From IMG/VR virus record IMGVR_UViG_3300038361_000164, positions 43,086 to 107,085 of that record: a stretch of DNA of 64,000 nucleotides; one strand, given 5' to 3'. The stretch comes from a virus. Positions within the stretch are counted from its first letter, which is position 1, and each line of letters starts with the position of its first letter. Positions 32,720 to 61,770 of this stretch are shown in pieces. The notes under the pieces were generated by a model that saw only the letters and a list, made by a program, of their open reading frames with translations, was not told the DNA's origin and did not search any database. Made by a program: the position numbers and the translations under genes.

Positions 32720-33067
32720 ATGACTAAAATAATTACTTGTTGTAAACATGGACTTGTGCGCAGCGTAGCTTTGGCAGATGTGCTAAAATTACATTTTGAG
32801 CCAGTTGACGTAATACCACTAGGCCTTAATAGTAATTCAAAAGAAACAATTATTATGTTAGGAAATTGGGCGGATCATATAATCATAATGGAAGAGAGAT
32901 ACCGATCTCGCGTTCCAAAAGAACTACATTCAAAAGTCTTAGTATGTGATGTAGGTCAAGACGTGTACGGCAACTCTCATCATCGCACATTAATTGACAT
33001 ATGTTGGCAATGGTGTAGAAAGCATGTTGGAAAATTAGGTATAGCCGAACACTCAAAAAGAATTTAA
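32720..33067 (+). CDS. Phosphotyrosine phosphatase-like protein
   Basis: 115 residues. The N-terminus has CCKHGLVRS, a C-X5-R-S phosphate-binding loop as in low-molecular-weight tyrosine phosphatases, placed directly after the first strand (MTKIITC) as in that fold. ADHIIIMEERY and LVCDVGQD could be the later acidic loop. Small predicted phosphatases of this type occur in phages; substrates are unknown. It lies between the holin-side genes and the UCA tRNA. Confidence 0.6.
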   Translation: MTKIITCCKHGLVRSVALADVLKLHFEPVDVIPLGLNSNSKETIIMLGNWADHIIIMEERYRSRVPKELHSKVLVCDVGQDVYGNSHHRTLIDICWQWCRKHVGKLGIAEHSKRI

Positions 33068-33074
33068 AATTAAT

Positions 33075-33173
33075 AGGCGTGTATAGCCATGAAGCTATGG
33101 CACAGGACTTCAAATCCTGATGCGGTGATTCCAACTCATCGCTATGAGGGGGCGGTACCTTCCATGCCTGCCA
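33075..33173 (+). tRNA. tRNA-Trp-like, anticodon UCA (reads UGA), atypical fold
   Basis: Seven-pair acceptor AGGCGTG (33075-33081) with CATGCCT (33163-33169), discriminator G at 33170 and encoded CCA (33171-33173). A1-U72, G2-C71, G3-C70 and G73 match bacterial tRNA-Trp identity. Anticodon stem CAGGA/TCCTG encloses CTTCAAA, anticodon TCA at 33110-33112. The D arm is GCCAT/ATGGC with a six-base loop. A seven-pair extra arm (33122-33142) has a T-loop-like TTCCAAC loop, and a further hairpin GAGGG/CCTTC (33146-33162) has an odd loop, GGCGGTA. So either it has a long variable arm and a noncanonical T loop, or a canonical T arm plus an inserted hairpin. It can decode the many in-frame TGAs. Confidence 0.85.
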
Positions 33174-33189
33174 AAAACCAACAAAACAA

Positions 33190-33753
33190 ATGTTTGACAC
33201 AATTAGAAGATTTAATCCATTTGGAGAGCATGGTTCTCCTTTTAAAATTATAAACAAAATAAATGAGTTACCAGCTCATCCGACTCGCACCTGATCTAAG
33301 CGTTCTTTATCTAAAATAAATAAAATTATTATTCATCAAGAATTGGGTGATGGCAGTATAGAGGCTGTCAACAACTACCACATAACTCCTGGCTCAAACA
33401 ATCATCTTTCTCCTAACGGGGCTCCTAAGTTTGCTTATCACTATGGTATTACAAAAAAAGGCGAAGTATGGCAGGCTAATATGCTTAGCGATGTGACTTG
33501 GCATTGTAAAACTCAGAACACAGCCTCTATTGGAATTATGGTAGTTGGTGATTTTAATGGACCAAACCACACTGGTACTGCCAAGAAACCTGCTAAAAAA
33601 CAATTGCGTGCTTTAGAAAACCTCTTGAATCATTTAGTAAATAGTGCTAAATTAAACTTGGAGTGTGTTTCTATTTACGGACACTCCTCATTTGGGAAAC
33701 AAAATTGCCCAGGAACAGCATTAGAAAATTTTATAATTAAGTATAGGAGATAG
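33190..33753 (+). CDS. N-acetylmuramoyl-L-alanine amidase endolysin
   Basis: 187 residues, with TGA Trp at 33292 (residue 35). The amidase_2/PGRP fold is visible: zinc-ligand His in IIIHQE, then FAYHYGITKKGEVWQA, VTWHCK, IGIMVVGDF, and the final HSSFGKQNCPG segment with the third ligand and catalytic context. It cuts the bond between MurNAc and the stem peptide. It follows the holin after the UCA tRNA, and its own translation past residue 34 needs UGA decoding. No signal peptide, so release depends on the holin. Confidence 0.9.
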
Positions 33754-35052: not shown

Positions 35053-35132
35053 TGAAAGTAATAAGTGGAATTTATAAAATTTCTAATAAACAAAATAAAA
35101 ATTATCAACAACATAAAGGATGGACATTATAA
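35052..35132 (+). CDS. Possible 26-residue peptide
   Basis: ATG 35052 overlaps the preceding stop as TAATG and the frame runs to TAA at 35130-35132, two bases before the next ATG. The peptide is basic (starts MKVISGIYKISNK). It may serve to couple translation to the actin-like gene or be chance. Confidence 0.3.
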   Translation: MKVISGIYKISNKQNKNYQQHKGWTL

Positions 35133-35133
35133 A

Positions 35134-36114
35134 ATGAAAGCAATTGACTGTGGAACTGGATTTTTTGTTTCGGTGAATAATCAAGATATTACATTACAAC
35201 GAAATGCTTTTTTAACTATAGATAAAGCTGTAACAACGCTTCGACAACTTAAAACACTTAATGTGCCTTATATAGAAATTAATAACAAACTACATATTAT
35301 AGGACAAAAAGCCTATGAGTATGCACAAGTTTTTGGAAATAAAGATCTAAAACGACCTATGGCACAGGGATTATTAAATCCAACTGAGCAAGATGCTTTC
35401 CCTATATTACGAGAAATTATTTCCGGATTGGTTGGAACGGCTTCTCAAGAAAACGAGCGCATTGTTTATTGTATCCCAGGAAAACCTATTGATAAATCAC
35501 AAGAAATTGACTATCATAAAGATGTATTAAAGCAAATTATAGAATCTTTAGGATACTCTGCAAGAGCCATTAATGAAGCAACAGCTTTAGGATTAGTAGG
35601 TTTACAAAATTCAGAGTTATCTGGAATTGCTATTTCATTGGGAGCAGGAATGGTCAATTTTGCCATTTTATATGCTGGAATGTCTGCTTTGACTTTTAGC
35701 ATAGCTAAATCAGGCGATTGGATTGATGAGAACGTGGCAAGAGATTGTGGAATTACTAAAGCGAAAGCTCAATATATAAAAGAAACAGGAAATTACACAA
35801 TAGATCCTGCCTCAACGCAGGAGCGTACAAGAGAACAACAAGCTATAAAAACATATTATGAAGTATTATTTAGATATTTGTTAGCTAATTTAGCAAAACA
35901 ATTTGAATCGTCAAATATGCCTACTTTTCCGAAACCAATACCAATTATAATTGGCGGCGGCACGGCTTCAATAAATGGTTTTATAGAAGTATTTAGAGAT
36001 CAATTTCAGGCAAAACAATTTCCTTTAGAAATAAGCGAAATTAAAATCGTGGACGAACCACTTACAGCAGTAGCTCGTGGTTGTTATTTAGAGGCTCAGT
36101 TAGAGGAGAATTAA
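35134..36114 (+). CDS. Actin/Hsp70-like ATPase (ParM/StbA type)
   Basis: 326 residues from ATG 35134, chosen because AAAGGATGG (35116-35124) lies ahead of it; a GTG at 35065 would add 23 residues of poor quality. The five actin-fold motifs can be followed: MKAIDCGTGFF (phosphate 1), YCIPGKP (connect 1), AINEATALGLVGLQ, ISLGAGMVNFAIL (phosphate 2) and PIIIGGGTASINGF (adenosine). Such proteins in large phages form filaments for DNA segregation or positioning. All Trp codons are TGG. Partner (adaptor) unknown; the next gene is a candidate. Confidence 0.78.
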   Translation: MKAIDCGTGFFVSVNNQDITLQRNAFLTIDKAVTTLRQLKTLNVPYIEINNKLHIIGQKAYEYAQVFGNKDLKRPMAQGLLNPTEQDAFPILREIISGLVGTASQENERIVYCIPGKPIDKSQEIDYHKDVLKQIIESLGYSARAINEATALGLVGLQNSELSGIAISLGAGMVNFAILYAGMSALTFSIAKSGDWIDENVARDCGITKAKAQYIKETGNYTIDPASTQERTREQQAIKTYYEVLFRYLLANLAKQFESSNMPTFPKPIPIIIGGGTASINGFIEVFRDQFQAKQFPLEISEIKIVDEPLTAVARGCYLEAQLEEN

Positions 36115-37172: not shown

Positions 37173-39053
37173 ATGAGTAACAGAAGTTTTACTGAAAGAA
37201 ATATACAAAACCCGTCAAGAAATGGTAGAGAATATCCTAATCCATTTTTCGATTTGGCGAGTTCGTATATTCCTAAAGACATAAAAGTATTGTTTAAGTA
37301 CTGTAAAGGCTTCTTCTATACTAATGCCTTTTTGCGTAATGTAATTACTAAACTAACAGAATATCCAATAACAGATTTACTTTATAAAACAGATGTAGAT
37401 GAAAAAATTAGAGAGAAATGGGACGAACTTCTACACGAACAATTAAAAATAAAAAGCTTTTTAATAGAAATCGGCTTAGATTATTTTACTTATGGAAATT
37501 CCTTTATTTCCTACTTTGTAAAACAAAAACGTTTTTTAAAATGTACTAAGTGTGGACACGAAGATGATATTAAAAACATAAGTTTTAAATTAAAAAACTT
37601 CGAATTCTATGGATCATGTAAAGAATGTAAAGCTTCAGAAATGAAGTTTACAGTACACGAAGAAGCTTTAGTATCCAGAAAACATTTTAGACTTTTAAGA
37701 TGGTCACCACAAAATATTGACATAGAATATAACCCAATAACGGGTAGTAGCTTATACTATTATAATATTCCTAATAAAATTAAAAAACAAATAATATCAG
37801 GAAATGCAGCTATTTTAAGAGACATTCCCTTGGTGTTTTTAGAAGCTTTAAAAACTAAGAAAAGAATAGAACTTGACGAAAGTAATTTATACCATTTTAA
37901 ACGTCCTACTCTTGCTGAAGAAGATATGGGTTGGGGTAAGCCTATAATACTTCCAGCGTTAAAAGATATCTTTTATCTACAAACATTGCGTAGAGGCAAC
38001 GAAGCAATTGCTATGGAGCATATTGTGCCTAAGAAGAGTATTTATCCCGCTAACACAGTTACACTCGACCCATATTCACAATTAAACCTTGCTCAATGGC
38101 GTACTGAGATGGAAGAGCAGATTAAAAAATGGCGAGAAGATGTGAACCATATTGGCGTATTTCCTATCCCAATTGGTTACCAAGAATTAGGTGGAAACGC
38201 TCGTGCATTGTTACTTACTCCTGAAATGAAGTTTTTAGAAGAAAACATTATTAATAGTTTAGGAGTACCAATTGAATTTATTAAAGGTGGAGCATCCTGG
38301 ACTGGATCATCTATCTCTCTTAGAATTATTGAGAATCACTTTCTTACATATAGAGAATTGTTAGAAGACTTTGTAAATCACTTCTTATTGCCTAATGCTT
38401 CTCGACTAATTAAATTGCCGCCAATTAAACTTAAATTTAAAAAGTTTAAAATGAGCGATGATGTGCAAGAAAAACAGCTTATGCTTGAAATGAATGGCGC
38501 TTCTCAGCTCTCCACTCCAACCTTACTAGAAGAATGGGGCTATCACTATGCTGATGAAATGAAGCTTACTAAAAAACATTTGGTAAGTACATTTGAAATG
38601 CAGGGTCTGCAAAAAGAAATGGACGCAGAATCAAGTGGAAAAGCTCAAGTAATTTTAGCCAAATATCAAGCACGCTCCGAAAAAGCGATGCAAGATGAAA
38701 TGTTAAAAATGAAGATGGAGTTATTCCAGAAAGAATTAGAACAAGAATTTGGAGGCATACCTGAAGATGCGTTTTCTATTATAGATCAATATGCTATACA
38801 AATAATGGCCTTAGAGCCAGCTATGCAACAACAGACTTTAATGTCTTTAAAAACTAAGACACCTACAATAGCTGTAATGGTAATGGAGCGTATAAATCAA
38901 TATCAACTTATGATGGAAAGTGAGGCACCTGCCGCACCTCCTATGAAGTCTAAAAGTGCTCCAAATGAGCAACAGCCTGGTACTAGGCAAAAAGACAAAC
39001 CAAATACTCCTAGCTCAGATAAGAGTAAGGCACAAACAAGAGGTAGCGCATAA
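37173..39053 (+). CDS. Portal protein
   Basis: 626 residues. Portal hallmarks: DMGWGKPIILPALKDIFYLQ (about 248-267), the RRGNEAIAMEHIVPKKSIYP segment, LGVPIEFIKGGASWTGSS and ENHFLTYRE in the clip/stem region. Residues about 124-155 contain two CxxC-type pairs (CTKCGHE and CKECK), so a small zinc-binding insert is likely. The C-terminal 150 residues are a long charged helix and a Pro/Ser/Lys-rich tail. It forms the dodecameric DNA gateway of the head. All its Trp codons are TGG although neighbours use TGA. Confidence 0.85.
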   Translation: MSNRSFTERNIQNPSRNGREYPNPFFDLASSYIPKDIKVLFKYCKGFFYTNAFLRNVITKLTEYPITDLLYKTDVDEKIREKWDELLHEQLKIKSFLIEIGLDYFTYGNSFISYFVKQKRFLKCTKCGHEDDIKNISFKLKNFEFYGSCKECKASEMKFTVHEEALVSRKHFRLLRWSPQNIDIEYNPITGSSLYYYNIPNKIKKQIISGNAAILRDIPLVFLEALKTKKRIELDESNLYHFKRPTLAEEDMGWGKPIILPALKDIFYLQTLRRGNEAIAMEHIVPKKSIYPANTVTLDPYSQLNLAQWRTEMEEQIKKWREDVNHIGVFPIPIGYQELGGNARALLLTPEMKFLEENIINSLGVPIEFIKGGASWTGSSISLRIIENHFLTYRELLEDFVNHFLLPNASRLIKLPPIKLKFKKFKMSDDVQEKQLMLEMNGASQLSTPTLLEEWGYHYADEMKLTKKHLVSTFEMQGLQKEMDAESSGKAQVILAKYQARSEKAMQDEMLKMKMELFQKELEQEFGGIPEDAFSIIDQYAIQIMALEPAMQQQTLMSLKTKTPTIAVMVMERINQYQLMMESEAPAAPPMKSKSAPNEQQPGTRQKDKPNTPSSDKSKAQTRGSA

Positions 39054-49210: not shown

Positions 49211-52200
49211 ATGGACAATTCATTAAGACATGATACTCAAAATACTCAAATAAAAAGAGCCATCAAAAAAGCAATAGAAACCGACTTTCCAATAGAAGCC
49301 AATGGTCGTCGTTTAGAAATTTCTAATGTATTGATAGACGATACTTTACCTACCGCCGATTTTCCGCTACAAAAGAAAACCAAACTAAATAGAAAGAGCT
49401 GGCAGATGCCTATGTACGCTGATATTTCTTTAATTGATATTAAAACTGGAAAAACTATTAGTAAAAAAACAAAAGCAAAAATTGGATCAGTTCCAAAGCT
49501 TACAAACAGATTTACCACTATTATAGACGGCAATGAATATATTACTGTAAACCAGCTACGTCGTAAATCCGGCATTTATTCCAGAGTAAAACAAAACGGA
49601 GAGTTAGAAAGCGAATTTAATTTATCACAAGGCTTTAATTTTAAAATGCAATTAGATCCGCATAGTGAAAAGTTTTTCTTAATCTTATCTAATCGAAAAT
49701 ATCGTTTATGGACTTTACTCAATCTATTGGGAGCTTCACGAGACTCCATTTCCAAGGCTTGGGGAGAGGAATTGTTGGCCAAAAACATTGCAGGCGCTTT
49801 AAACACTGAGGCATCAGAGATGACCTCTATCTATACAAAACTATTTAAAAACAAGCCTAAAGATTTTAGAGAAGTTATTGTAGGCTTACAAAAGTATTTT
49901 AATGAATACACAGAAGTAGATCCTGAAACAACAAAAATAACTTTAGGCAAATCTTATGAAAAGGTTAACGCGGCTACATTGTTAGCAGCATCTTTAAAGT
50001 TATTAAAAATTCAGCGCAGCGAAGATAAGCCGGACGAAAGAGATAGTTTAATCTTTAAAAAAATATTAGGTGTCGATGATTTATTAGTTGAGCACTTTAA
50101 AACTCGTCAGGAGCCTTTAAAAAAGAAAGTTGCACGTAGTATGCGATTAAAGGACAACGTGAGGGAGATTATTAGTGCTGGTATTTTTACCAAAGCGATT
50201 AAAGAGTTCTTTACTACAGGAGATATGACCTCTACTCCTCCTCAAACCAACCCTGTCACAATTGTAAGTGAGCGTCGTAAAACCACTCCAATGGGTACGG
50301 GCGGTATTAAAAGTCGACATGCTGTGACTATGGATGCGCGCTCAGTACAACCAACTCACTTAGGATTCTTGGATGTTTTATCGACGCCGGAGTCAGGAAA
50401 AGTTGGATTAACGATTGGATTGCCGTCAGAAGTTGAGAAACACGGTACTGATCTTAAAACTCCTGTCTATACTAATGAAGGTAAACTAATTCATATTAAT
50501 CCATTGACATATTATAATAATTATGTTGCCTATCCTGATCAATTTGAACTGGTAAAGGCAAAACCAAAAGCTAGAAAACAAGCGGTTAAAGTTATGTATA
50601 AAGGAAAGCTTGAGCAAATTACTCCAGATCGAGTAACTTACTGGATGCGTTCTCCTAAGGCTATGTTTTCTTTTGCTACTAATTTAGTACCTTTCATACA
50701 AAATGTACAGGGCAACCGTGCTGCTACCGCTGCACGAATGGTTACACAAGCCATGGCCCTCGACGAGAAAGAGGCGCCTTTAGTACAAGTACGCAGAGAT
50801 GACTCTTCAACTTATGAAAGTCTCTTAGGTAACTATTTAAATCCCGTGCTGGGCACAAACAAAGCTGGTAAAAAGCAAAAAGGAACTGTTACTAAAATTA
50901 CTAAAAATTATGTTCATATTGATGTAAATGGAGAAGAAATAAAGAGAGGATTATATAATAACTTTCCACTTAATCAAGATGGATATTTAAACTCTACTCC
51001 AGCGGTCAAAGTGGGAGATGAGGTTAAGTCTGATACTCCTTTAGCTGAAAATAATTATTCATCTGGACGTGTTTTATCCTTGGGTAAAAATTTAACAACA
51101 GCATATATGGCATACAAGGGTTATAACTTTGAGGATGGAACTGTTATAACTGAAAGCGCTGCTAAAAAATTAAGTCACAGTATGCTACATAAAATAAATC
51201 ATTTCTTTTCTCCTAAGCTTACGATTTTTGATTTAAAGAAATTTGTTGCTTGGTATCCTGGCACTTTAACTCCTGACAATCAAAAAAAGTTAGGAGAAAA
51301 TGGAGTTATTAAAGTAGGGCAAACTGTGAACCCTGGTGACACTATTATTGCACTTTTAGAAACCAAAGATTTGGATGATAATGAACGTGCTTTAAAAAGA
51401 TTAAACAAATTTATTTATAATCAATATAAAAAAAGAGTCATTGAGTGGGATGAGGATGATGTAGGCGTGGTAACTGATGTGGCTATAAACGGTAGAAATA
51501 TTGATATTTATATAAAATCAAAACACCCTTTCAAGGAGGGTGATAAACTTTGTGTTAGTGCAGATACTGAATTTTTAACATACGATGGTTGAAAGTTTTT
51601 AGAAGAAATAAGTATGAAAGATGAATTTTGTACGTTAAATCCTAAAACACATAAAATTGAATATCAAGAACCTTCTATTATTAATTTATATGAACATGAA
51701 GGACCTATGTATCACATTGCAAATACTTTAATTGATCAACTTGTAACTCTTGATCATAAAATGTATGTAAAAAAACGTTATAGTAAAAAATATGAATTTT
51801 TAAAACCTGATCAAATTAAAGGAAAAAGAGTACGTTATGTTAAAAATGGAACTTGGAAAAGTAAGAAAAAAGTAGTTCCAAAAGAATTTGATAAACAAAT
51901 GGATACTTTCGAATATGCCTCTCTAATGGGGTGGTACTTATCTGAAGGTTCTAGTTGCAAAACTTCAAACGGATATGTAACTGATATTTGCCAAAGTCCC
52001 ATTATACATAAAGAATATTATGATGAGATTGCAGTCTTGGTAAGAGATTGTGGGTTCACTCCTATTTATTGTAAAGATAGAATACGTTTTAATGGTAAAG
52101 CTATTCATTTATATTTAAAACCTTTTGGTCATGCTCATGAAAAATTTGTTCCTCAGAATATAAAAAATGCTTCCCCAAGAATAATACAATATTTTTTAGA

Positions 52201-55200
52201 TGCTTATATCAAAGGGGACGGTCATATTAACAAAACTAATCAAGCTGTTATTACTACTAGTAGTGTTAAGATGCGTGATGATCTTATGGAGTTATTTTTA
52301 AAGGTCGGAGAAAGTGCTACCTATCAAAAAGTTGCTAATGCGGGCGATACCATGATGGGAAATGCAGTAAATTATGATATATGGAATGTAAGACAAATTC
52401 GTACTAAAAACTATCCCCAAGTAAACCATGGCCATGTACACCAACAAAACGGTCAAATTGAAGAAATTATACAATATTCAGGAAAAGTTGGTTGTCCTAC
52501 TACAGAAAATGGTGTTGTGTATATAAGACGTAATGGTAAAACAAGTTGGACTGGAAATTCCGGACGATATGGAAATAAATATATTGTAACTAAAATTATT
52601 GGCGATTCTGAAGCTCCACATAGAGAGGATGGTACTCCTATTGACATAATGCTAAACGCACACGGTGTACCTTCTCGAATGAATATTGGGCAAATTTTAG
52701 AAACAGCGGCTGGCAAAATAGCTGCTAAAACTGGAAAGCCTTATATTGTAGATAACTTTAGAGATCCAGATGAGGATGTGACTCAGACTGTAATAAATGA
52801 TTTAAAAAAGCATGGAATTGAGCCAGACGAAATATTAACAGACGGTAAATCCGGCAAAGCTTTCGCTAAGCCAATTTTTGTTGGTAAGCAGTACTTCATG
52901 AAATTGCGTCACATAGTTAAGAAAAAACAAGGTGTAAGAAACTTAGGTACTTACGATATTGACGAGCAGCCGGTCGGCAAAGGTGCTCAAACTGTTGGTA
53001 CGATGGAAACATATGGATACTTAGCTCATGGGGCAAAAAAGAACTTACAAGAAATTGGAGAAATAAAAGGTAGAGCTAATGAGGAATACTGGAGAAGTAT
53101 TCAATTTGGATTAGTTCCTCCAAAGCCGGCAAGAAATTTTGTTTTTGATAAAATGTTAAATTACATTGAAGGACTTGGTGTAAACATAACTAAGAAAGGA
53201 AATCAACTTCGCATCTCTCCACTTACTGATGAGGATGTTTTAAAGAAATCAAACGGTAAGCTACTTGATCCTGGTGCTTTGTTAATTGGTAAGAATTTAA
53301 CTGCACGAAAAGGCGGACTATACGATCGTGAAATAACTGGCGGTGTAAGAGGAACACATTGGTCACACATTGAGCTGGCTTCTAGAATTTCTAATCCTAT
53401 GTATGCTGATGCGATCATGAAAATACTTGGTTTAACACAACAACGTTTTGAAGATATTCTTGAAGGTAAAGAAAAGCTAAATGAACTAACTGGAATGGAA
53501 GCAATTATTGCAGCATTAAGTGCAATTAAAGTAGACTCTAAATTATTGTCAGTAACTGATGAATTAGTAAGCGCACCTCCTACCAATGTAAACAAGTTAA
53601 ACACTTTGGCAAAATATTTAAGAGCTTTAAAGGATCTTAAACTAAGACCAGAAGAAGCTTATACAATGAAATATGTTCCAGTACTTCCTCCAGTATATCG
53701 ACCTACAGTGCCATTACCTTCTGGTGATTTAGCTGTAAGTGATATTAATAAACATTATAGAGATATTGGAATTATCAATACAAGCTTGTTAAGAGCTAAA
53801 AAGGACTTAACGAAGGAAGATGTTGATTTAGCAGAATACTCGCTATATAACACGGTTAAAGCTATGCAGGGGTTCATTGAGCCTACTACTTATGGTGGTG
53901 AGCAGTATAAAGGTATATTAAAAGAAATTGGTAAGCCAAAAGTTGGGCTAATACAGGGCAAGACATGGTCTAAGCGACAAGATGTAAGTGCTAGAAGTAC
54001 TATAACCGTAGAACCTAGTTTAGGGTTGGATGAAGTTGGAATTCCAAGAAAGCTAGCTTATAAAATGTTTAGACCTTTTGTTATACAGGAATTAAAGCAA
54101 TCTGGATTAAAAGCAGTTGCAGCTTTAAAGAACTACGAAGAGGAATCACCGTTAGCTTGGAATGCTTTAAAAGAAGCTGTTAGAAAACGCCCTGTTATAT
54201 TAAATAGAGCTCCGTCTTTACATAAACATAGTATACAAGCATTCAAACCTGTTTTAATAAAAGGAAAAGCTATTGCTGTTAATTCGTTAATTCACGCAGG
54301 ATTAAATTTAGATCATGATGGCGATACAATGTCGATTATGACACCCGTTGGCCCTGAAGCTATTGCTGAAGCTCGTCATATGTATCCTAGTAAAATCTTA
54401 TTTAAACATGGAGATAACTCTGTAGTGCCTGGATTGGGTCAAGAATATATTTATGGATTATACCAGTTAAGTTTAATTACTAAAAAAACTGATGCAAAAT
54501 ATAAAACCATTCAAGCTGCTAAGAAGGCTAAAATTTCCTGGACTGAACAGTTTTTCTTAAATGGAAAAGAAATGACTATCGGTCAATATCTTATTAATCA
54601 CGAACTTCCAGACAAGTTAAAAGAGTATGATCGTGCTATGGACAAAAAAACTATTAGCAAATTACTTACAACTCTTGCAAAGAGTTATAATAAATACTTC
54701 TCTGATGTGATTGAATCTTGGAAGGATCTAGGCGCGATGTATGCTTACAGAAATACAAATACTATTTCCATAAAAGATTTTGATGTAGATCGTTCTTACA
54801 GAAATGCTATTATTGAAAAAGAACTTCCTGCTATAAATAGATTTAAGGGTGAAAATAGAATTAAGAAACTAAACGCAATGACATTGAAAATTCAGGATGC
54901 TCAAAATAAGAAGTTTAGTAAATCAAAAAACAATATTTTCACTATGTTACGTTCTGGATCGTTTAGTAAACCGGATTCGGTTCGACAAATTATTTCTATG
55001 CCAGGTGTGCTGACAGATGTCCATGGCAAACCAATTCCATATCCTGTATTAAAATCATATGGAGAAGGATTGGATACAGCTTCTTATTATTCAACGCTAT
55101 ACGCTGTGCGTAAAGGTACTGTAGATAGAGCTGTAAATACTCAGGATTCTGGAGCACTCAACAAGGCACTTCTTAATGTTACTCGTCGTTTACTAATTAC

Positions 55201-56275
55201 TGTTGAAGATTGTGATACTAAAAAGGGAATTTATATACAAACAGACTCTCCAGATGTACTAGATAGATATTTGGCAAAAACAATAACAGGAATTGGTAAA
55301 CGAAACGATATCGTAGATTCTACGCTTGTTGGAAAAGCGAAAAAAAGAAATCGCGTACAATTATATGTTCGCAGTCCTTTGACTTGTGAGGCTGTCGAAG
55401 GTATATGTCAATCCTGTTATGGATTAATGCCAAACGGACAACCTGCTTCTGTGGGAACCAATGTTGGAGTTTTAGAAAGTCAATCCGTTACAGAAAGATC
55501 TACACAGTTAGTTATGCAATCCTTCCATAGCGGAGGATCAGCACTTGCTGGAGGCGGAATTCAAGCTGGATTTCCTCGTCTTGAGCAGTTATTAAAAGTT
55601 CCTGTTAAATTACCAGGAAAAGCTACTCTTTCTACTGTACGAGGAAAGGTGAAGAAAATAGATAAGAACCTGACTGGCGGATATAATGTACGAATAGAGG
55701 GATATGGTACTGCGAATGATAAGGACTTTACAATTCCTTCTGGTAGATTGCCTTTAATTAAAGTAAATGATCAAATTGACAAAGGTGATGTACTAAGTGA
55801 CGGCATTATCAAACCACAAGAACTTGGAGAGTTAAAAGGACATTTAGTTGCTCAACGTTATTTAGTAGATGAAGCACATAAGGTTTATGGAGGCAACTTC
55901 TTTAAAAAGACTTTTGAAACAGTAATTCGTGGAATTTCAGATAATGCGGAAGTAACTAAAGCTCCTGAAAAAAGCGGATTTCTACGTGGTGATAAGACGA
56001 CTGTAAGTAATATAAAATTTGTTAATAAAAAACGTAAAGCAGAGGGATTAGAAAGAGTTGAATATGTTCCTTACTTCAAATCTATAGAAACTCTTAATAC
56101 AGATGTTGACGATTGGTTAACTAGAATCAGTACGAACAGAGTTAAAGCTGGGCTAACTGTTGGAGCAGCTAAAGGGTTATATGCTAACCTTAAAGGTAAG
56201 GATCCGATACCTGCTTATATCTATGGAGATAACTTTGGAAGAAATACTAAATATGAAAAGGGTGAATTTTATTAA
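49211..56275 (+). CDS. rpoBC: Fused beta-beta' RNA polymerase with intein
   Basis: 2,354 residues as encoded, about 2,018 after intein removal. Beta part: PKLTNRFTTIIDGNEYITVNQLRRKSG, then GDKL-[intein]-SGRYGNKY and [22 protein letters not shown]. The beta' part follows without a stop: RDREITGG-type HWSHIELA, LPPVYRPTVPLPSG, LNRAPSLHKHSIQAF, the metal-binding LNLDHDGDTMSI (NADFDGD in cellular enzymes), GICQSCYG and MQSFHSGGSALAGGG (trigger loop region). It would transcribe phage genes, likely with the sigma-like protein at 5361. Its only TGA (51590) lies in the intein; all extein Trp are TGG. Its own terminator follows. Confidence 0.92.
51551..52558 (+). other. Intein with LAGLIDADG endonuclease in RNA polymerase
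   Basis: 336 residues between GDKL and SGRYGNK of the beta subunit. Starts with Cys (CVSADTEFLTYDG-W-K), a standard block A, where TGA at 51590 encodes the common Trp. The endonuclease core shows YASLMGWYLSEGSS (about 51915-51950) and FLDAYIKGDGHI (about 52190-52230), two LAGLIDADG motifs. The C-terminal VVYIRRNGKTSWTGN precedes extein Ser. The penultimate residue is Gly where most inteins have His, but the essential Asn and +1 Ser are present. Confidence 0.9.
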
Positions 56276-61389: not shown

Positions 61390-61770
61390 TGGTGGAGGCG
61401 GGGAGAGTCGAACTCCCGTCTTATTATAGTATCAAGGTGGTTGTTTACAAGCTTATTTCTTTTGCAATGTTTACGAGGTAATCAAAAGAACAAATGATCT
61501 CGGGAGCTCTATTATTAGTTATCGTACTTCCCTTTACCTTTGGAACGCTGTGCCTTTATTTATTCGTCCCCAAACAGTTGGACAGATCCGATAAATGACG
61601 CTCTTCAGAACTATCGGAGTCAAGAAGAAGAACGTGAGCGATAACCGTAAATGTTACTTTACGCCGCTAATGCGAACTGCGTTTTGCCAGTTGTTTGTTT
61701 TAATTGGTTAAGCCAATAACTCTGCTTGAGCCATTCTCGCGTCGTATAATAATCGATACCGGGCGCCCCC
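61390..61770 (-). ncRNA. ssrA: tmRNA
   Basis: 381 bases. Acceptor GGGGGCG (61770-61764) pairs with CGCCTCC before A-CCA; T arm GGGAG-TTCGACT-CTCCC precedes it. The tag frame at 61688-61659 encodes GKTQFALAA and ends in TAA. The LAA end is the usual Clp degron. Phage tmRNAs are uncommon. It would rescue stalled ribosomes, including at UGA codons if suppressor tRNA is limiting. Confidence 0.93.

Follow-up and report, generated by a model that had tools for sequence, protein, structure and literature searches.

A putative two-anticodon tRNA-Trp of UGA-recoded phages that may separate decoding from charging identity

Within the 64,000-nucleotide stretch of viral DNA analysed here (the window), which forms part of a 210,263-base virus record, the RNA encoded at 33075-33173 on the plus strand is an intact tRNA gene with the anticodon UCA and a tryptophan-like acceptor. 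Its extra arm carries a further seven-nucleotide loop, UUCCAAC, which by its sequence is the anticodon loop of tRNA-Trp (U33-CCA-A37). An earlier note on this DNA had described the extra arm but missed that, judged by sequence, its loop is the anticodon loop of a tRNA-Trp and is conserved in 44 tRNAs. We consider the molecule to be probably a phage suppressor tRNA that inserts Trp at UGA and divides the two jobs of an anticodon between two arms. Slightly less firmly, we propose that it represents a natural class of two-anticodon tRNAs in which UCA decoding and CCA identity are separated, possibly with a switch between charging and decoding, and that this class occurs widely among UGA-recoded phages, where tRNA-SeC calls conceal it. 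The Trp anticodon loop in the extra arm would make a mechanism out of what otherwise looks like an oddity.

Parts and fold of the 99-nt tRNA gene

The minimum-energy fold of the RNA (-36.9 kcal/mol) is identical to the centroid, and both give a five-arm structure, bearing out the extra arm and nonstandard fold that had been described before. The stability of the fold corresponds to z = -2.19, with 6 of 200 shuffles equally stable; the tRNA goes beyond chance because it has 43 structural relatives. The acceptor comprises 7 bp, its 5' strand AGGCGTG (A1, G2, G3; 33075-33081) pairing in the fold with CATGCCT, which together with the discriminator G73 and the encoded CCA occupies 33163-33173; these pairs are 99.6% paired over 39 relatives. 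The acceptor features of tRNA-Trp, namely G73, A1-U72, G2-C71 and G3-C70, are thus all present, as the earlier note had claimed. The D arm (33086-33101) folds into a long stem, GCCAT(G)/(T)ATGGC, and its loop lacks the usual GG. The first anticodon arm, CAGGA-CTTCAAA-TCCTG (33103-33119), bears the anticodon UCA at 33110-33112, which decodes UGA, and the second, anticodon-like arm, GCGGTGA-TTCCAAC-TCATCGC (33122-33142), bears CCA at 33131-33133 in a tRNA-Trp anticodon loop and is proposed here as an identity element for tryptophanyl-tRNA synthetase (TrpRS). A UCA anticodon within a complete tRNA fold, one of the features by which a UGA suppressor tRNA (Trp) is recognised, was found. The molecule departs from tRNA-Trp in that the arm beside the D arm carries UCA while CCA sits in the second arm, in place of one anticodon arm with a variable loop of 4-5 nt. 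ARAGORN made no call for this tRNA, and the Rfam tRNA model matched positions 33084-33140 only (30.5 bits), a span that takes the TTCCAAC arm as the T arm.

The arm at 33146-33162, GAGGG-GGCGGTA-CCTTC, is the T arm of the fold, with a noncanonical loop (GGCGGUA, 33151-33157). At the same place in a related phage (L011) the tRNA reads GAGGG-TTCGACT-CCTTC, i.e. the T stem of the window with a canonical T loop. Because same-place relatives keep a 3' arm with a canonical T loop, GGCGGTA occupies the T-loop position and the TTCCAAC arm is separate. Thus, out of the two explanations offered by the earlier note, the noncanonical T loop stood and the insertion of 22 bases between a TTCCAAC T arm and the acceptor did not. 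Furthermore, a tRNA on a different contig (L300, minus strand near 1421) has the same T loop, GGCGGUA, on a different stem, and its D loop also lacks GG. Since the pair recurs there, it looks, by this comparison, like a recurring alternative set of D and T loops and not like decay. Its occurrence on unrelated stems suggests a noncanonical interaction between the D loop and the T loop.

Conservation and covariation of the second arm

The layout of acceptor, D arm, UCA arm, CCA hairpin, 3-5 nt and T arm is shared by 44 distinct UCA tRNAs, 43 of them in virus contigs. As 36 of the 44 came from pattern searches, some with UCCAA required, and the parser for the whole set selects on UCCA, the unselected sets are the test. 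Synteny or portal homology led to eight distinct UCA tRNAs, none of which was selected for the second loop, and UCCAA was present in that loop in 8/8; the extra-arm loops read UUCCAAC in the window, GUCCAAA in L006, L102, L242, L243 and L244, GUCCAAG in L011 and UUCCAAA in L237. In addition, IMG/VR was scanned with a pattern that specified a UCA loop, GCCA and, at the spacing of a long arm, a canonical T loop; the extra-arm loop was left unconstrained. Among the matches with a 7-bp acceptor and G73, U-CCA was found in the extra arm of 30 out of 31 distinct tRNAs (28 with UCCAA, two with UCCAU), and among the other matches, mostly tRNA-Sec with an 8-bp acceptor, in 0/19. Compared with the 30/31 observed, UCCA occurs in 6.6% of shuffled arms, and a chance origin of UCCAA was rejected. 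The exception, L439, combines UCA and a Trp-like acceptor with a long variable region that forms neither a stable nor a CCA hairpin; its record contains no TrpRS.

In all 44 sequences the second loop has U33-C34-C35-A36, and A37 is found in 42, whereas positions 32 and 38 vary. The loop is not a T loop, because position 32 is U in only 9/44. Pairing was scored in a structure-based alignment of 39 rows, N-padded and arranged by hand around the proposed arms (MAFFT misaligned the arms), and slid and shuffled controls are given because the alignment was fitted to these arms. The whole structure is 93.9% paired with 272 compensatory cells. In the stem of the second arm 82.3% of cells are paired versus 49.1% in shuffles, and its covariation score of 0.851 compares with 0.243 for shuffled arms and approximately 0.24 when the arm is slid by one base. 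In these alignments conservation and covariation show a second, CCA anticodon arm.

The UCA arm usually starts one base after the D arm, as anticodon arms do, and between the CCA arm and the T arm lie 3-5 bases (GGGU, AGGU, UGGU, UAU, UGC), which resemble the variable loop of tRNAs with a single anticodon. In one tRNA from a pattern scan (L104) the second arm, ACGGT-CTCCAAA-ACCGT, is a complete tRNA-Trp anticodon arm. When the UCA arm was deleted in silico, ARAGORN called tRNA-Trp(CCA) in 30/44, the window tRNA not being among those recognised, and deletion of the CCA arm left a UCA tRNA in most of the 44. Judged from sequence, the molecule looks like a tRNA-Trp with a duplicated anticodon arm.

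Further searches added little: a first pattern, GGACTTCAAANCC..CCTGCCA, matched mostly by chance, every sound tRNA that could be parsed among the matches listed for one further pattern scan was already known, and the isolate collection 'phages' yielded ordinary tRNA-Trp only. Among 56 matches in genome_contigs there was one real case, a two-anticodon tRNA at L421:1403-1499, on a contig of a Methanobrevibacter MAG that packs 28 tRNA genes into 8 kb. This contig is probably a phage that was binned with the archaeon.

UGA codons of the source phage and its relatives

In the late gene region (12-36665, plus strand) 74 in-frame TGA codons are spread over 19 genes, of which none is terminated by TGA and none has an in-frame TAA or TAG. 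The TGA-bearing late genes include those for a baseplate wedge, glycosyltransferases, a collagen-like protein and an endolysin. The tRNA gene lies in this region, after a gene of 115 aa (32720-33067) and just upstream of the endolysin gene (33190-33753, plus strand), which encodes an N-acetylmuramoyl-L-alanine amidase (Amidase_2) with an in-frame TGA at codon 35, aligned with TGG in relatives. The portal gene (37173-39053, plus strand) lies near the recoded late genes but is itself free of in-frame TGA; the portal homologues examined likewise have none, and in-frame TGA is absent from the minus-strand genes of the window.

The late genes were translated with X at each TGA and then aligned to relatives. 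In non-recoded records the residue opposite X was Trp (TGG) in 29 of 66 cases, with Phe in 6, Tyr in 4, Ser in 2, Gly in 1 and Cys in 0; in recoded relatives it was Trp encoded as TGA 28 times and as TGG 15 times. These alignments give good support to the view that the phage reads UGA as Trp, and the source is likewise well supported as a recoded jumbo phage with a UGA-decoding tRNA-Trp. Both the decoding of UGA and the amino acid inserted are thus well supported, and the proposal of the earlier note, that a UCA tRNA with Trp identity could supply Trp at UGA, agrees with the code of the phage that carries it.

Related phages were gathered by portal homology, and in-frame TGA was counted inside homology alignments because the counts in mechanical ORFs were too noisy in GC-rich relatives. 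It made up 56 of 8,114 residues in records with the tRNA versus 1 of 13,144 in records without it. In-frame TGA and a UCA tRNA in the same place were found together in L006, L011, L237, L241/L102, L242, L243 and L244, and neither was found in L005, L017, L019, L021, L024, L025 and others; a whole-record pattern search of the non-recoded relatives revealed no other copy in tRNA context. G015 and G017 have few TGA, counted in sampled stretches only. Thus the presence of the tRNA tracks recoding among the relatives.

Several other features were observed. A frame for RNA polymerase beta/beta' (2354 aa; 49211-56275, plus strand) is open only with readthrough of the TGA at 51590, which lies in an intein-like insertion that follows GDKL (CVSADTEFLTYDG-W-KFLEE), approximately 14 residues from the start of the insertion, at what we take to be the conserved Trp of intein block A. 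If this TGA is read through, the polymerase gene would also depend on UGA suppression. A phage tmRNA with the tag GKTQFALAA is encoded at 61390-61770 on the minus strand, beside an array of about 30 tRNAs. Among the other records, a CUA tRNA carried by one phage and named tRNA-Pyl by ARAGORN (L042:9365-9439, minus strand; G000:115366-115439) is a possible amber suppressor. Beside the portal gene, the frame at 35065-36114 (plus strand) weakly matches the MamK family of actin-like proteins.

Proposed division of labour and alternative readings

Where a synthetase reads the anticodon, which TrpRS does, a tRNA generally loses its identity once that anticodon is altered; the phages seem to evade this loss because a second arm still carries the identity anticodon. 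In the proposed mechanism the first arm, with UCA, would pair with UGA on the ribosome. As the UCA anticodon is devoid of C34, the second arm, which stands in the place of the variable region and appears to copy the ordinary tRNA-Trp anticodon loop U33-CCA-A37, would restore the missing identity element. The determinants of bacterial TrpRS are G73, the CCA anticodon, A1-U72 and G2-C71/G3-C70 (PMC9976931), and the CCA arm together with these acceptor elements could supply what the enzyme needs. The host TrpRS would then charge a tRNA whose decoding anticodon would otherwise be rejected. Most likely, we infer, TrpRS reads the CCA arm. A search of 48 phage records, of which 37 have this tRNA, found no TrpRS (PF00579), most virus records being incomplete, and RF1/RF2 were absent from the 14 records searched; with no phage TrpRS in the records the host enzyme must charge the tRNA, unless the gene lies outside them. 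The anticodon position could be occupied by either arm: 3-5 nt, the normal length of a variable loop, follow the CCA arm, and the UCA arm lies one base past the D arm. The simplest idea of how TrpRS might reach the CCA arm is a switch between two forms, a charging form with the CCA arm in line and the UCA arm looped out and a decoding form with the reverse; we infer both this switch and the expression of the RNA.

The alternative that survives best, although we hold it to be rather unlikely, gives the CCA arm another conserved role, either as a long variable arm that is stabilising or as a place where a modification enzyme, an elongation factor or another protein docks, while TrpRS tolerates UCA and reads the acceptor only. 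The acceptor and discriminator are indeed strong Trp identity determinants (PMC9976931), and L439 has UCA and a Trp-like acceptor with no CCA hairpin. Nevertheless, a purely structural arm leaves unexplained why U-CCA is fixed in 44/44 while the stem and positions 32 and 38 vary, and why it is absent from the tRNA-Sec arms found in the same scan. Considerably less probable is that either arm enters the ribosome and that one tRNA reads both UGA, through the UCA arm, and UGG, through the CCA arm. Both arms do have the geometry of anticodon arms (a stem of 5-7 bp and a 7-nt loop) and in many sequences a tRNA is still predicted after removal of either, but G000, L104 and L421 have separate tRNA-Trp(CCA) genes and UGG can be read by wobble with a U34 anticodon anyway, which leaves little for a UGG-reading arm to add. 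It is highly improbable that the cell excises one arm in the manner of an intron and leaves an ordinary tRNA: recoded jumbo phages are reported to have tRNA 'introns' (PMC13037316) and a normal tRNA-Trp(CCA) remains in 30/44 after removal of the UCA arm, yet that removal would abolish the UGA decoding that the phage needs, and the second arm, unlike an intron, is conserved exactly at the TrpRS anticodon determinants.

We attach hardly any weight to a tRNA-Sec, or to an RNA resembling SerRS-charged allo-tRNAs, that would insert Sec or Ser at UGA. The likeness to tRNA-Sec remarked on earlier is superficially real, given the UCA anticodon, long D stem and long extra arm, the name tRNA-SeC that ARAGORN gives to most relatives, and the 48.5 bits scored by L011 against an Rfam tRNA-Sec cut-off of 47. 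It does not extend to a relationship: the covariance search for tRNA-Sec (RF01852) gave the window tRNA 31.1 bits, the acceptor/T helix is 7+5 and not 8+5, pair 1-72 is A-U, UGA sites align with Trp and never with Cys, true tRNA-Sec has no CCA loop, and 74 TGA codons spread over structural genes are unlike selenoproteins. tRNA-Sec was ruled out by the acceptor length, U72 and the alignment of UGA with Trp, and a SerRS-charged allo-tRNA by the 7/5 composition, which is not 8/4 or 9/3, and by Ser at only 2 of 66 UGA sites. Equally remote is the reading of TTCCAAC as the T arm with 22 bases inserted before the acceptor, which follows the Rfam alignment described above and is contradicted by the relatives, in which a canonical T arm lies at the 3' position and the UCCAA arm is a separate hairpin.

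The proposed two-arm suppressor can be compared with several known tRNAs. In Mycoplasma and mitochondria UGA is also read as Trp by a tRNA-Trp(UCA), which unlike the phage molecule is an ordinary cloverleaf with one anticodon and presumably an adapted TrpRS. Bacterial tRNA-Trp(CCA) shares A1-U72, G2-C71, G3-C70 and G73, and the CCA arm, the following 3-5 nt and the T arm resemble its 3' half, but in the phage tRNA a further anticodon arm, with UCA, stands after the D arm and before the CCA arm. Bacterial tRNA-Sec (RF01852) is similar in UCA, the GGACTTCAAATCC anticodon arm, the long D stem, the long extra arm and G73, whereas the phage tRNA differs in its 7-bp rather than 8-bp acceptor, U72, the CCA loop in the extra arm and Trp at UGA. 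The allo-tRNAs and selC* tRNA-Cys (Mukai et al., reviewed in PMC7609411) likewise combine, as natural tRNAs, an unusual cloverleaf with a long extra arm; however, they alter the lengths of the acceptor/T helix and none described there has a second anticodon arm. Phages that read UGA as Trp with suppressor tRNAs, some with TrpRS and RF1, are described in PMC10746230, citing Borges et al. 2022. According to that source, these 'code 4' phages are alike in UCA, UGA as Trp, a phage-carried tRNA and recoding that falls mainly in structural and lysis genes, and differ in that some carry TrpRS and RF1, in contrast to the 48 records without TrpRS and 14 without RF1/RF2 searched here. The accessible literature on code-4 suppressor tRNAs makes no mention of a second, CCA anticodon arm, nor do reviews of noncanonical tRNAs or a tRNA-Sec survey (PMC7609411, PMC5330540), and full-text literature searches, with most subscription papers outside their scope, found none, which does not prove priority.

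If the proposed division between the arms is true, it would be a natural answer to a central problem of suppressor-tRNA and genetic-code engineering and a simple route to stop-codon reassignment without a new synthetase, and many phage genes annotated 'tRNA-SeC' would be something else. Finally, two of the tRNAs (L447 and L429) have U37 together with G1-C72, and the second loop is GUCCAUA in both although the rest of their sequences differs, a possible joint change of the acceptor and the second loop.
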